From the NCBI RefSeq assembly GCF_000024025.1, contig NC_013131.1, positions 6,758,001 to 6,822,000 on the forward strand: a stretch of DNA of 64,000 bases. The letters are read 5' to 3'. The stretch's first letter is position 1. Each line of letters opens with the position of its first letter. The position numbers were made by a program, and so were the translations under genes. Below are positions 3,360 to 63,903 of this stretch, piece by piece. Source of the DNA: Catenulispora acidiphila DSM 44928. GTDB lineage: Bacteria > Actinomycetota > Actinomycetes > Streptomycetales > Catenulisporaceae. The notes beneath the pieces are model-generated. The model was not told where the DNA came from. It was given only the letters and a program-made list of their open reading frames with translations, and ran no database searches.

Positions 3360-4912
3360 CGGGCGTACACCTCCTCCAACTGCCGGGTCTGCCGGAAGCC
3401 GGTGTAGGAGATCAGGCCGACCAGCACGAAGATCAGGAACGAGATCGCCGAGGCCAGGCCGTACTGCGCGCCCTGCCCGCCGAACGCCAGCCGGTAGGTG
3501 TAGCTGATCAGGATGTCCGTGTCTCCCGCGGTGGAGCTGCCGGAGGGGTAGGGACCGCCGTCGGTCAGCAGCCGGATCACGTTGAAGTTGTTGAAGTTGT
3601 AGCCGAAGGAGGCGATCAGCAGCGGCATCGCGCCGATCAGCACCGTGGGCATGGTCACCGAGCGGAACACCCGCAGCGGCGAGGCGCCGTCGACCTTCGC
3701 GACCTCCTTCAGCTCCTGCGGCACCGCCTGCAACAGACCGGCGCAGACCAGGAACATGTAGGGGAAGCCGAGCCACAGGTTGGTCAGCAGCACCGAGCCG
3801 CGCGCCGCCCACGGGCTGCCGAGCCAGTCGATGTGCGTGCCGAACAGCTTGTTCAGCAGGCCGAAGTCCTTGTTGTACATGCTCGACCAGACCAGCGTGG
3901 AGATGAACGCCGGCATCGCGTACGGCAGCAACAGCAGGGAGCTGTACAGCCTTCGGCCGCGCATCCGCGGATGGTCCATGACCACTGCCAGCAGCAGACC
4001 CAAGCCGAACGTGGTCAGCACCGACAGGATCGCGAAGGCGATCGTCCAGATCAGGACTCTGAGGAACGGACCACGGATGGCCGCATCGGTCAGCACCGAG
4101 GTGAAGTTCTTGAACCCGACGCCGATCTTCCAGCCGATCGGCAGCGTCTTCCCGGAGCCGTCGGCGGCTTTGAACTCACCGCCGGACTCCTTATAGACAG
4201 TGTGGGTCCGGGTGTCGGTCATGGTCTGCGCGGAGGCGTCGTACGTCATCGTGAAGTGGCCGACGTACGCCTCGGACAAGCCCACCGACTTGATGAAGCC
4301 GGTACCGGTCGGCACGGCGAACGAGGCCAGGCGCGGGCCCAGACCGTTGACCTGGATGCCGGTCAGGATGTGCCAGCCCTGCGCGGTGATCACCTTGCCG
4401 GTGAACTGGTCTTTGGTGACCTGCGCGTCCGGTACCGGGGCGAGCCCGGAGGCGTCGCCGCGCTCGACCTTGCCGTCCGGATCGGTGAGGAAGAAGACGA
4501 AGGCGCCGGAGGTGTCGGAGGCCTTGGTCGCGACCGACAGCTCGTAGCGCTGCGCGCCGGGCTGCTCGATCACGGAGTCGGCCTCGATCTGCGCCACAGC
4601 CTGGGTCTTGGTCAACCGGTGGCCGTCGCCGTAGTTGGTGAAGGCGGTGCTGATCGTGTAGCCGATCGGGTAGACCTGGAAGGCCAGCAACAGGATCGTG
4701 CCGGGGACCAGGAACCGGGCGGCGATCCGTTTCGGCGTCAGGTAGACGTAGGCGAGGATCGCCGTCACCGCGACGGAGATCGTCACGCCGGTCCACGAGT
4801 GCTTGTCGACCAGCGTCGGGATCGTGACGACCGCGAAGGCGGCGACCAGCCCGACGAAGACGACCCGCGGCCACGACAAGCGCGCGAGACGCTCCGAGGG
4901 CGAGGCAGTCAT
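3356..4912 (-). CDS. malF: Maltose/maltodextrin ABC transporter permease MalF
   Basis: Permease of 518 aa. Two N-terminal hydrophobic segments come first, then a membrane segment near residues 70-90, a roughly 170-residue extracytoplasmic P2-like region, and five further membrane segments. The EAA loop reads ELKEVAKVDGASPLRVFRSV. The large loop is typical of MalF rather than other sugar permeases. ATG 4912 is chosen because AGGAG lies 8 nt upstream; the longer reading frame adds 30 residues without support. The 190-bp gap to malE contains a five-copy 17-bp tandem repeat. Confidence 0.93.
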   Translation of the reverse strand: MTASPSERLARLSWPRVVFVGLVAAFAVVTIPTLVDKHSWTGVTISVAVTAILAYVYLTPKRIAARFLVPGTILLLAFQVYPIGYTISTAFTNYGDGHRLTKTQAVAQIEADSVIEQPGAQRYELSVATKASDTSGAFVFFLTDPDGKVERGDASGLAPVPDAQVTKDQFTGKVITAQGWHILTGIQVNGLGPRLASFAVPTGTGFIKSVGLSEAYVGHFTMTYDASAQTMTDTRTHTVYKESGGEFKAADGSGKTLPIGWKIGVGFKNFTSVLTDAAIRGPFLRVLIWTIAFAILSVLTTFGLGLLLAVVMDHPRMRGRRLYSSLLLLPYAMPAFISTLVWSSMYNKDFGLLNKLFGTHIDWLGSPWAARGSVLLTNLWLGFPYMFLVCAGLLQAVPQELKEVAKVDGASPLRVFRSVTMPTVLIGAMPLLIASFGYNFNNFNVIRLLTDGGPYPSGSSTAGDTDILISYTYRLAFGGQGAQYGLASAISFLIFVLVGLISYTGFRQTRQLEEVYAR

Positions 4913-30450: not shown

Positions 30451-30837
30451 GCGGCGAGCCGGTCCTAAGCCGGATTCTGTCCTGCGCCGAAGCGCAGTGG
30501 CGACCATCCATCTAGGGCACGCGTCGCCGCGTGCCTCGTGCGGTCTACCCGCAGGCTCGGGCGGACAGCCCTCGAACGCCTGCGCAGACCTGGTCTCCCA
30601 GGCCCTCTTGACCTTGCTCCGGGTGGGGTTTACCTAGCCGCCCGGGTCACCCCGGGCGCTGGTGAGCTCTTACCTCACCGTTTCACCCTTACCCGCCTGA
30701 CGGCGGGCGGTCTTTTCTCTGTGGCACTGTCCCGCGGGTCACCCCGGGTTGGTGTTGCCAACCACCCTGTCCTATGGAGTCCGGACTTTCCTCGACACCG
30801 GTCGCCCGCTGCCGCGATCGCCTCGCCGACTCGCCGC
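30451..30837 (-). ncRNA. rnpB: RNase P RNA, bacterial type A
   Basis: The catalytic RNA that matures tRNA 5' ends. Read on the minus strand, the 5' region contains GAGGAAAGTCCGGACTCC (30794-30777). The P4 strand GGTAAACCCCACC is at 30635-30623, and the 3' region reads GACAGAATCCGGCTTAGG (30482-30465). P1 is formed by GGCGAGTCGG (30835-30826) with CCGGCTCGCC (30462-30453) and extends two further pairs, which sets the ends given here. The length of about 387 nt suits an actinobacterial RNase P RNA. It is the only RNA gene recognised besides the T-box leader. Confidence 0.95.
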
Positions 30838-60269: not shown

Positions 60270-62306
60270 GTGACTCGTCCTGATCATGCTCGTTGTCCGG
60301 ACATGGCGTGGATTACGAGACGATCGTCGGATCGTGCCCTGGTTGCCGGGCTGACGGCACTGGCAGCGGTGATGTTCGGCTGGGGCTTCCAGCGGGGGCG
60401 GACGCACCCCTTCTACACCGCGGCCGTGCGCTCGATGGGGGCGAATTGGCACGACTTCGTCTACGGAGCCTTCGACCCGGCGGGCTTCATCACCACCGAC
60501 AAGCTGCCCGGCGCCTTCTGGGTGCAGGCACTGTCGGTGCGGATGTTCGGGTTCCACCCCTGGGCCGTACTGCTGCCGCAGGTGCTGGCGGCCACGGCGT
60601 GCGTGCCGCTGCTGTTCGTCACGGTGCGGCGCTGGGCCGGGCGGGGCGCGGGATACGCCGCGGCCGTCGGCTACACGCTGACCCCGGTGACCGTGGCACT
60701 CTCGCGCACGAACATCCCCGACGCGCTGATGGTGTTCTTCATGGTGGTCGCGGCGCACGCGCTGTGGCGCTGGGCCGACGGCGGCCGGCGCGCGAGGTGG
60801 TGGCTGGCGGCCTCGGCGGTGTGGCTGGGCGTGGCCTTCAACGTGAAGATGGGGCAGGCGCTGCTGGTCGTGCCGGTCTTCGCCGGGACTTGTTTCCTGC
60901 TCGGCGCCGGCACGCGCTGGTCGCGGCTCGGGCGCGCGGCGGCGTACGGGGCGCTGGTCGCGGCGGTGTCGCTGGCGTGGATGGTGTTCGTGACGCTGAC
61001 CCCGGCTTCGCAGCGTCCGTACATCGACGGCTCGGTCCACAACTCGGTGTGGGAGATGGTCTTCCAGTACAACGGTTTCGGCCGCATCGGAGGCCAGGGC
61101 GCCGGAACCGATCCGCTGGCCGGGGGCGCGGTGCTCTCAGGCGCCGGCGGACCCGCCGGGCTGGGGCGGATCTTCGGGGCGGCTTCGGCGGGGCAGATCA
61201 GCTGGCTGGTGCCGGCGGCGGTGGCGGGGTTGGGTGCGGGGTTGTGGGCTGCTTGGCGTTCACGCACCACACGTATCTCGAGCACCGCCGACCCGGCGCT
61301 GGGACACGCAGCTGGGGCATCCCAGCAATCGCAGCACGCGGCGGGTGCGGATTCGGCGCGGATGCAGACGACCGCCGCAGCCCCAGCCCTCCGCACATCC
61401 ACCGCCGGCTACCTCTTCTGGGGCGGCTGGCTCGGCATCTACGCCTTGGCCTTCTGCGCCGCGACCGGCATCCACTCCTACTACACCTCGACCCTCGCCC
61501 CACCCGTCGCCGCCCTCGCCGGTGCCGCCTTCGTCGCCGCCGCGCGCGGCCGCACCTGGCACCTGCCCGCGCTGGTCACGCTCACCGCGGGCTGGGCGTT
61601 CCTCGCCAGCCGCGAGACGCCGCACTACCAGCCGTGGCTGCGCTGGTTCGTGCTCGGCGCCGCGGTGCTGGCGATCGCGCTCGTGCCCTGGGCGCGGATC
61701 TCGCGCAGCCGTGCGCTCGGCGCGTTCTCAGCGGTGGCCGTGGCGACCGCAGCCCTTGCCGCGCCAGCGGTGTGGGCCGGCTCGGTACTTACCCGCAAGA
61801 GCGACATGATGGGCAGCATCGCGGCGTCGGCGGGTCCGCCGCAGGCGATGTTCGGCGGACGCAAGTTCAGCGCGACCGCCTCCAAGCAAATCAAGCGCAG
61901 ATCGCACAGCTTCGGACGCGGCGCTGACCCGCAAGTGATCCGCTTCCTGAAGCATAACCGCGACGGCCGCCCGTACGCCGCTGCCGTGGACGGCTCGATG
62001 GCCGCGGCGACCTACCTCGCGGACAACGTCCCGGTCCTGCCGATGGGCGGCTTCACCAGCGACGCCCCGGCGCCGACCGTGCAGGGACTCGCGCAGCTCG
62101 TGCACACCGGCAAGCTGCGCTACGTCGTGGTGTCCGGCATGCGCATGGGCGGCCGGAGCGTCGCAGCGAAGGACCGCGACGCCTGGGTGACCAACCATTG
62201 CCACTCGGTTCCGGGCCTGTCCTCCGACACCGGCAGCGGCGTTGGCACCGGCACCGGCACTGGTATTGGCACCGGCGCGGCGACCGGCGTATTCGATTGT
62301 TCGTGA
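60270..62306 (+). CDS. Membrane glycosyltransferase, ArnT/PMT-like (GT39/GT83 clan)
   Basis: Integral membrane enzyme of 678 aa with about 11-12 segments. The first outside loop has YTAAVRSMGANWHDFVYGAF and FITTDKLPGAFWVQALSVR, the DK and acidic pattern of GT-C transferases that use lipid-linked sugars. A soluble C-terminal domain (about 520-660) ends in a Thr/Gly repeat (GTGTGTGIGTG). GTG 60270 is used; ATG 60303 is possible. It probably transfers a sugar to a lipid, protein or cell-wall polymer outside the membrane; the acceptor is unknown. Confidence 0.82.
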   Translation: MTRPDHARCPDMAWITRRSSDRALVAGLTALAAVMFGWGFQRGRTHPFYTAAVRSMGANWHDFVYGAFDPAGFITTDKLPGAFWVQALSVRMFGFHPWAVLLPQVLAATACVPLLFVTVRRWAGRGAGYAAAVGYTLTPVTVALSRTNIPDALMVFFMVVAAHALWRWADGGRRARWWLAASAVWLGVAFNVKMGQALLVVPVFAGTCFLLGAGTRWSRLGRAAAYGALVAAVSLAWMVFVTLTPASQRPYIDGSVHNSVWEMVFQYNGFGRIGGQGAGTDPLAGGAVLSGAGGPAGLGRIFGAASAGQISWLVPAAVAGLGAGLWAAWRSRTTRISSTADPALGHAAGASQQSQHAAGADSARMQTTAAAPALRTSTAGYLFWGGWLGIYALAFCAATGIHSYYTSTLAPPVAALAGAAFVAAARGRTWHLPALVTLTAGWAFLASRETPHYQPWLRWFVLGAAVLAIALVPWARISRSRALGAFSAVAVATAALAAPAVWAGSVLTRKSDMMGSIAASAGPPQAMFGGRKFSATASKQIKRRSHSFGRGADPQVIRFLKHNRDGRPYAAAVDGSMAAATYLADNVPVLPMGGFTSDAPAPTVQGLAQLVHTGKLRYVVVSGMRMGGRSVAAKDRDAWVTNHCHSVPGLSSDTGSGVGTGTGTGIGTGAATGVFDCS

Positions 62307-62340
62307 TCGCGGCCGGGGATAAGATCCCTCCAACACGTTG

Positions 62341-62610
62341 AAGGAGACGAGTAGCCTCGGATCCGCGCGGGTCCAGAGAGCCGTCGGCAGCTGGGAAGAC
62401 GGTCCCGCGTCCCGGGGCGAAGACCCTCCTGAGTGCGGGGAGGCAATGCCCCGCCGGCTGGCTCCCGTCATCGGGCCGCCACGAGGTCGTGGCTGAGGCG
62501 ATCGCCGACTCCGGCGGTGGCGGAGGCCGCGGCGAAGGTGCGGTGGTACCGCGATTCCCTTATCGCCCGCGCCCCCAAGGGATCACTTCGATGCCCTTGG
62601 AGGGCTCAAA
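62341..62610 (+). ncRNA. T-box riboswitch (tRNA-Asp sensing) controlling aspS translation
   Basis: The 304-bp leader has the canonical parts. Stem I base is AGGAG (62342-62346) with CTCCT (62426-62430), and the inner stem CCTCGG (62355-62360) pairs with CCGGGG (62412-62417). The specifier loop has AGTA on the 5' side and GAAGAC on the 3' side, so the specifier codon is GAC (62422-62424), Asp. CAGAGAGCC is the AG-bulge segment. The T-box AAGGTGCGGTGGTACCGCG is at 62535-62553. A hairpin CCAAGGG (62575-62581)/CCCTTGG (62594-62600), extended by GCCC/GGGC, hides the Shine-Dalgarno GGAGGG (62599-62604). Control is therefore at translation: uncharged tRNA-Asp should free the site. Confidence 0.9.
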
Positions 62611-63903
62611 ATGATCCACCGCGTACTCGCCTCCGAGATGCCGGCGCACGTAGGTGAAACCGTCCAGGTCTGCGGCTGGCTGCACCGCCGCCGCGAACTC
62701 AAGAACGTCACGTTCCTCATCCTGCGCGACCGCAGCGGCCTGACACAGGCCGTCCTGCCGGGCGCCGTCGCCGAGCAACTGCGCGACATCCCGGAGGAGA
62801 CCGTGCTCTCCTTCGTCGGGACCGTAACCGCCAACGAGCAGGCGCCCGGCGGCGTGGAGGTCGTCGCGCCGGCCAGCGGCCCGCAGGTCGAGCTCCTGTC
62901 CACCCCGGCCGAAACGCCGCCGCTGGACATCTACCGCCCAAGCGTGACCGCCTCGCTGCCGACCATCCTGGACGGCGCCCCGGTGGCCCTGCGCCATCCA
63001 CTCCTGAACGCCCCATTCCAGATCACGGCCGCCTCCATCGCCGGCTTCCGCACCGCACTGGACGCCCTAAACTTCACCGAGATCCACACCCCGAAGATCG
63101 TCGGCTCGGCCACCGAATCCGGCGCCAACGTCTTCGCCCTGGACTGGTTCGGACGCAAGGCATACCTGGCGCAATCCCCGCAGTTCTTCAAGCAGGCCAT
63201 GGTCGGCGTCTTCGAGCGCGTCTACGAGACCGGCCCAGTCTTCCGCGCCGAACCCTCCGACACCGCACGGCACCTGGCGCAGTACACAAGCCTGGACGCG
63301 GAACTCGGCTTCATCACCGACCACCGCGACGTGATGGCCGTGGTCCGCGAGGCCCTGGCCGGCATGGTCACCACAGTCGCCGAACGCGCACCGGCAGCCG
63401 TGGACCTCCTCGGAGTGAAGCTGCCGACCGTCCCAGACCAGATCCCCGAGATCCACTTCGCAGACGCCATGAAGATGCTCGGCGAAGACGAGCCGGACCT
63501 ATCCCCAGCCAACGAACGCGACCTGAGCCACTGGGCACTACGCGAATTCGGCAGCGAGTTCCTCTTCGTCACCGGCTACCCAATGACCAAGCGTCCCTTC
63601 TACACCCACGCACAACCCGACCGCCCAAACTACTCCAACAGCTTCGACCTAATCTTCCGCGGCCTAGAACTAATCACCGGCGGCCAACGCCTCCACCGCT
63701 ACGAGGACTACATCGCAGCCCTGACCGCCCGCGGAGAACCAACCAACGCCTACGAGGGATACCTCGCCAACTTCAAGCACGGCATGCCCCCACACGGCGG
63801 CTTCGCACTCGGCCTGGAGCGCTGGACCATGCGCCTGACCGAAGCGGACAACCTGCGCCGGACGGCCCTGTTCCCTCGGGACCTGCACCGCCTGACACCA
63901 TGA
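62611..63903 (+). CDS. aspS: Aspartyl-tRNA synthetase, archaeal/non-discriminating type
   Basis: Class IIb synthetase of 430 aa. An OB-fold anticodon-binding domain (about 14-100, VCGWLHRRRELKNVTFLILR) is joined to the catalytic domain. Motif 2 lies in PVFRAEPSDTARHLAQYTSLD and motif 3 in GGFALGLERWTMRL. EIHTPKIVGSATESGANVF and AYLAQSPQFFKQAMVGVFER mark the archaeal-type enzyme; the bacterial GAD insertion is missing. Such AspRS can often charge both tRNA-Asp and tRNA-Asn. The T-box leader means it is made on demand, possibly as a second copy beside a housekeeping AspRS not in this window. GGAGGG lies 7 nt before the ATG. Confidence 0.92.
   Translation: MIHRVLASEMPAHVGETVQVCGWLHRRRELKNVTFLILRDRSGLTQAVLPGAVAEQLRDIPEETVLSFVGTVTANEQAPGGVEVVAPASGPQVELLSTPAETPPLDIYRPSVTASLPTILDGAPVALRHPLLNAPFQITAASIAGFRTALDALNFTEIHTPKIVGSATESGANVFALDWFGRKAYLAQSPQFFKQAMVGVFERVYETGPVFRAEPSDTARHLAQYTSLDAELGFITDHRDVMAVVREALAGMVTTVAERAPAAVDLLGVKLPTVPDQIPEIHFADAMKMLGEDEPDLSPANERDLSHWALREFGSEFLFVTGYPMTKRPFYTHAQPDRPNYSNSFDLIFRGLELITGGQRLHRYEDYIAALTARGEPTNAYEGYLANFKHGMPPHGGFALGLERWTMRLTEADNLRRTALFPRDLHRLTP

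Follow-up and report, generated by a model that had tools for sequence, protein, structure and literature searches.

How a second, archaeal-type aspartyl-tRNA synthetase (AspRS2) is controlled in an actinobacterium, and which tRNA its control answers to, are the questions raised by the leader of aspS2 in Catenulispora acidiphila DSM 44928. The leader lies in a stretch of 64,000 nucleotides (NC_013131.1, positions 6,758,001 to 6,822,000 of the forward strand), referred to here as the window. Only ileS T-boxes were reported in Actinobacteria by Seliverstov 2005 (PMC1262725), and a later survey gave 32 T-boxes in 19 actinobacterial genomes, with eighteen named in Symbiobacterium (Wels 2008, PMC2494555). 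That the Actinomycetales have an extra AspRS was pointed out in 2014, but its regulation was not covered there (PMC4206432). TBDB contains an automatic scan of Actinobacteria (PMC7778990) and may list some of these aspS2 leaders; a paper joining the T-box and the second actinobacterial AspRS was not found in open-literature searches.

T-Box Leader Upstream of aspS2

The original prediction described a T-box leader with all of its parts, and the covariance search with the Rfam T-box model bore this out. RF00230 matched the leader over the whole model (positions 1-219) at 62329-62573 of the plus strand with 64.8 bits, at E=4.6e-14 in a scan of 341 bases and E=3.3e-13 in a genome-wide scan (one contig of 10,467,782 bases). 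Stems I, II/IIAB and III and the antisequestrator are all present, with covariation (Table 1). The score lies below the curated gathering score of RF00230, 93 bits, which is the curators' cut-off and not a biological feature, so that the leader goes unlisted by a default Rfam scan of the whole window. The sole further match in the genome, upstream of ileS, scores lower than the aspS2 leader, at 52.4 bits. Elsewhere in the window, a bacterial class A RNase P RNA is found at 30451-30833 on the minus strand (279.9 bits).

Table 1. Features of the aspS2 leader and gene, in window coordinates.
Feature	Position	Strand	Basis and remarks
T-box leader of aspS2	62338-62610	+	RF00230 match 62329-62573 plus expression platform; kept in relatives
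Stem I	62343-62429	+	Base GGAG 62343-62346 with CUCC 62426-62429; specifier loop; AGAGAG/GCUG distal part; covariation helices 1-4
Specifier GAC (Asp)	62422-62424	+	RF00230 covariance alignment; followed by C62425
Stem II	62435-62440 with 62449-62454	+	Covariation (helices 5-7, jointly with Stem IIA/B)
Stem IIA/B pseudoknot helix	62460-62464 with 62473-62477	+	Covariation (helices 5-7, jointly with Stem II)
Stem III	62486-62493 with 62526-62533 (span 62486-62533)	+	Covariation helix 8
Antisequestrator	62537-62573	+	A1 62537-62543 with 62567-62573; A2 62551-62555 with 62562-62566; RF00230 alignment, covariation
T-box bulge UGGUACC	62544-62550	+	Between A1 and A2; UGGN against G73 of tRNA-Asp
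Possible loop-to-tail pairing	UCCCUU 62556-62561 with AAGGGA 62577-62582	+	75/77 leaders; swap test; covariation helix 11
Sequestrator hairpin	62571-62584 with 62590-62605	+	Minimum free energy fold; 62571-62573 common to A1
Shine-Dalgarno GGAGGG	62599-62604	+	Inside the 3' strand of the sequestrator hairpin
aspS2, archaeal-type aspartyl-tRNA synthetase, 430 aa	62611-63903	+	NF003483, 529.7 bits; nearest solved relative 1n9w

Specifier Codon and tRNA Match

The covariance alignment places GAC, an Asp codon, in the specifier position, and an AspRS gene stands behind it, in agreement with the proposal of an Asp specifier matching the downstream enzyme. This codon is invariant in the 62 long-Stem-I leaders tallied, and the short-hairpin forms described below also have GAC. 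The ileS T-box of the same genome (L002, 1501-1742) has an AUC specifier, and the spacing between AUC and the GAG behind it equals that of GAC in the aspS2 leader; this agreement supports the GAC register.

The sequence GAAGACM could also be read in another register, with ACC/ACA (Thr) or GAA (Glu) as the true specifier, and the base after GAC alternates between A (35/62 long-Stem-I leaders) and C (27/62), as the third base of a Thr codon may. A purine 3' of the specifier is usual in T-boxes without defining them; the C. acidiphila leader has a C there. However, the GAC register retains the spacing of AUC in the ileS T-box, truncated relatives carry GAC in the middle of a hairpin loop with a purine on its 3' side, the bulge sequence UGGC fits G73, and the downstream gene encodes an AspRS. 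A Thr or Glu register was rejected on these grounds as extremely improbable.

The T-box bulge begins with UGGU in the C. acidiphila window and has UGGC in most relatives outside Catenulispora. Since G73 is the discriminator base of both tRNA-Asp and tRNA-Asn in the C. acidiphila genome, UGGC would form a full pair and UGGU a wobble.

Covariation and Loop-to-Tail Pairing

The proposed structure was assessed in an alignment of 31 leaders that was built from sequence, not structure, the structure being taken from one row and the Rfam match. In it, 95.5% of cells are paired and 28 pairs show changes on both sides, with helix A1 paired in 100% of cases. None of 500 shuffles equalled this covariation, and pairing fell to about 45% when the partners were slid. 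Such conservation and covariation in relatives exclude chance as an explanation of the T-box leader.

A further pairing recurs outside these helices. In 75 of the 77 leaders, the A2 loop can form at least three base pairs, in a near-fixed register, with the sequence immediately 3' of A1; the pairs are CCCUU/AAGGG in C. acidiphila and UUGCCC/GGGCAA, AGCCC/GGGCU or ACCCG/CGGGU elsewhere. The mean score of 12.83, against 11.54 with swapped partners, exceeds all 1000 swaps (46 distinct combinations), in a test where the CCC/GGG core is invariant and the relatedness of the leaders stays in the swaps. Judged from the letters of these leaders, the pairing might be a feature of the OFF state or, by keeping AAGGG from the Shine-Dalgarno strand, of the ON state. 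None was seen by eye in the ileS leader of the C. acidiphila genome. Another candidate pairing, GGAUCA (62580-62585) with UGAUCC of the start region (62612-62617), is 93.5% paired with covariation not beyond that of shuffles, and it is therefore not relied on.

Expression Platform and Mode of Control

A hairpin that sequesters the Shine-Dalgarno sequence, instead of a U-tract terminator, had been predicted for this leader, and the folding agrees. No terminator-like site was found in 62200-62700, and an intrinsic terminator was consequently rejected. The minimum free energy fold of the expression platform lies at -40.6 kcal/mol and contains the hairpin GCCCCCAAGGGAUC/GAUGCCCUUGGAGGGC, which covers the Shine-Dalgarno sequence. 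This sequestrator, a hairpin of 14 bp, overlaps the antisequestrator helix A1 by three bases (62571-62573). Imposing the antisequestrator gives -34.9 kcal/mol, a cost of 5.7 kcal/mol, and in this predicted fold the Shine-Dalgarno sequence and the start codon are still paired, in a weaker hairpin, so that the folding does not reproduce the exposure proposed for the ON state.

The partner of the GGAGG region in relatives of the family f27 is CACCUCC, or a closely similar sequence, that overlaps A1, and the energy gaps are mostly 4-10 kcal/mol; many relatives outside f27 have a zero gap between the sequestrator and antisequestrator folds. The combination of no terminator with a hairpin that covers the Shine-Dalgarno sequence and overlaps the antisequestrator makes it most likely, from this modelled anatomy, that the control of aspS2 is translational.

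AspRS2 and the Synthetase Set of the Genome

The archaeal-type AspRS of 430 aa expected downstream was confirmed by its protein family. AspRS2 falls in NF003483, aspartate--tRNA(Asn) ligase, well above the cut-off of 353 bits, and scores 342.4 bits against the sister model TIGR00458, below the cut-off of 368.4. Its Pfam content consists of the OB-fold and the class II core only, with no GAD domain, and its nearest solved relative is the non-discriminating AspRS2 of Thermus. In an alignment with the Thermococcus enzyme, H25 stands opposite W26 and a proline opposite K85, positions whose residues we take to be linked to non-discriminating tRNA use. AspRS2 is thus an archaeal-type enzyme and, by these sequence features, probably non-discriminating.

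The genome carries three tRNA-synt_2 genes (class II D/K/N): a bacterial AspRS (NF001750, 838.6 bits), aspS2 and a third taken as LysRS. The checks suggested for the genome thereby returned a second, GAD-containing aspS, together with GatB. If the third gene is LysRS, no room is left for AsnRS, which is apparently absent from the C. acidiphila genome. The GAD domain of the bacterial AspRS and GatB are present both in C. acidiphila and in 16/16 other aspS2-bearing genomes tested.

Proposed Mechanism

The leader very probably acts as a T-box that senses uncharged tRNA-Asp and controls the translation of the second, archaeal-type AspRS. An Asp T-box is directly supported by the conserved structure, the GAC codon, the agreement of this codon with the downstream gene and the competition between two folds, antisequestrator and sequestrator; from these we infer the steps that involve the tRNA. 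Uncharged tRNA-Asp would make two contacts, one between its GUC anticodon and the GAC specifier, the other between G73-CCA at its end and UGGU in the bulge. This pairing would stabilise the antisequestrator and so free the Shine-Dalgarno sequence and the start codon, while charged tRNA-Asp would be unable to pair in this way and the RNA would rest in the sequestered form. On this view, AspRS2 would be a spare enzyme that is induced whenever the housekeeping bacterial AspRS leaves tRNA-Asp uncharged, be it for lack of Asp or because that main enzyme is inhibited. Points against this reading are the RF00230 score below the curated gathering score, the C that follows the specifier in this and other leaders (27/62), and the folding, in which the Shine-Dalgarno sequence stays paired under the imposed antisequestrator and many relatives outside f27 have a zero gap.

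The predicted lack of tRNA discrimination means that AspRS2 could, in addition, provide GatCAB with charged tRNA-Asn. A leader that answers tRNA-Asn as well as tRNA-Asp, linking AspRS2 to tRNA-dependent Asn formation with GatCAB, would suit the assignment of the enzyme to the aspartate--tRNA(Asn) ligase family and a genome in which GatB is present and AsnRS is not seen. tRNA-Asn has G73 as well, and its GUU anticodon could pair with GAC through one G-U wobble. However, the specifier never becomes AAC, nor does it alternate, in any of the 62 leaders, although AAC would be the better codon for tRNA-Asn, and a dual response is considered decidedly unlikely. The sensing of tRNA-Asp is the preferred reading.

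Distribution and Possible Exchange of the Enzyme

The named genomes scanned contained 39 aspS2 loci, 38 of them actinobacterial, and a T-box with GAC lies upstream of aspS2 in 38/38 actinobacterial loci (Catenulispora, Streptomycetaceae, Streptosporangiaceae and Pseudonocardiaceae). In a sample of the class, aspS2 occurs in 17/297 genomes, with the T-box in all 17. Among 30 aspS2 loci inspected in family f27, the T-box was not in the sequence seen for three (L072, L080, L088), one of which had only 237 bases upstream in view. All of these locus counts refer to related sequences, not to independent events. An Asp T-box driving an AspRS had been called less usual; the arrangement itself holds, but the wording understates it, as it recurs across several actinobacterial orders. 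In one genome (G007, contig C895, loci L105 and L070), aspS2 appears broken after about residue 97, with the T-box and the 5' end of aspS2 at about 100-550, the remainder at 3720-4739 and possibly an inserted element.

Wherever it was found, the Asp T-box stands above an AspRS, even one that is 37% identical to that of the window. This enzyme, of the same NCBIfam family as AspRS2 of the window, is encoded below the same GAC T-box in Streptomyces-family genomes (L110:15-1328, minus strand, and L115-L122). One such genome, G182, belongs to the 297-genome sample, and the enzyme was found in eight further genomes of a 246-genome sample of the order. Counting G182, the gene is covered by the match at eight loci, and the T-box is present at 8/8 of them. 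In L122, the gene has internal stop codons. The first codons after the start in the 37%-identical type resemble those of the other AspRS2 type. This resemblance would suit a replacement of the enzyme behind a retained leader in Streptomyces-family genomes.

Purpose of the Spare AspRS

Starvation response, transamidation supply and inhibitor resistance were all proposed as purposes, and sequence alone does not separate them. The spare AspRS may serve either a general starvation response or tolerance to AspRS inhibitors, e.g., nucleoside sulfamates. It has been described that the Streptomyces sulfamate dealanylascamycin acts on Plasmodium AspRS (PMC12262901) and that duplicated synthetases are known resistance factors (PMC9437257). 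Combined with the patchy distribution (17/297 genomes) and the exchange of the enzyme behind one leader, which fit selection for a spare, these reports suggest that the T-box and AspRS2 could serve mainly for tolerance to natural AspRS inhibitors (nucleoside sulfamates), with AspRS2 as the resistant target enzyme. This is judged somewhat unlikely: a plain starvation response accounts for the same facts, and no shared partner or biosynthesis gene adjoins aspS2 in the loci inspected (GC3-filtered ORF listing).

A bolder version, rather unlikely in our view, would make the Asp T-box and its AspRS a movable actinobacterial emergency cassette, in which the leader is kept and the enzyme exchanged, the trigger being compounds that disable the housekeeping AspRS, and the switch using the loop-to-tail pairing, outside the standard T-box model. 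A regulated spare AspRS could in itself hint that natural inhibitors of AspRS occur in soil.

Comparison with Known Systems

A close likeness exists to the ileS T-box of actinobacteria, which acts on translation (PMC1262725; Sherwood et al. 2015, as cited in later papers) and in which a Shine-Dalgarno hairpin also replaces the terminator upstream of a synthetase gene. However, that T-box has an Ile specifier, governs IleRS and mostly has an intermediate or ultrashort Stem I (PMC7583486), whereas Stem I of the aspS2 leader is long and includes the AGAGAG and GCUG elements. In Clostridium acetobutylicum, according to PMC4206432 (citing Saad 2012, 2013), a T-box likewise controls enzymes with overlapping roles in making Asp- and Asn-tRNA, namely a second AspRS and GatCAB; that system belongs to a firmicute and includes the GatCAB genes, while C. 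acidiphila has a single aspS2 with an Asp codon and probably translational control. The archaeal-type AspRS2 of Thermus and Deinococcus, which includes the best solved relative (1n9w), also accompanies a bacterial AspRS as the second such enzyme, together with GatCAB, but its association with a T-box was not found described in the literature examined. As actinobacterial T-boxes have been described mainly for ileS, the aspS2 leaders add an Asp-specific, probably translation-controlling group that extends over several actinobacterial orders.

Reduction of Stem I

At one end of the range of orthologous leaders, a long Stem I is combined with Stem II; intermediate forms keep the long Stem I but little of Stem II, and at the other end a hairpin of about 17 bases displays the codon in its loop. 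In f27, some leaders have a long Stem I and a much shortened Stem II region; in others, Stem I is cut to a hairpin of at least four pairs with a loop of 8-9 bases, e.g., GAGG[CCUGACACC]CCUC. The small hairpin with GAC in its loop was seen at L063, L065, L067-L069, L077, L079, L081, L084, L086, L093, L095 and L099, and at L064; these hairpins were assigned in part by an automatic search, which was clearly false in L063 and L079 and failed or doubtful in several others, and for the rest by eye. Specifiers in the apical loop of short Stem I's are known for translational T-boxes (PMC7583486), and the cut forms of f27, f37 and f10 resemble the ultrashort Stem I T-boxes in displaying the codon in a hairpin loop. 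Unlike those, they have an Asp codon, and their orthologues in front of the same gene include leaders with a long Stem I. These graded forms make the minimal requirements of tRNA sensing testable within one gene family. The cut forms occupy three places in the AspRS tree (a quick tree, its search unfinished), and in family f10 a cut form (L064) and a long form (L062) are sisters.
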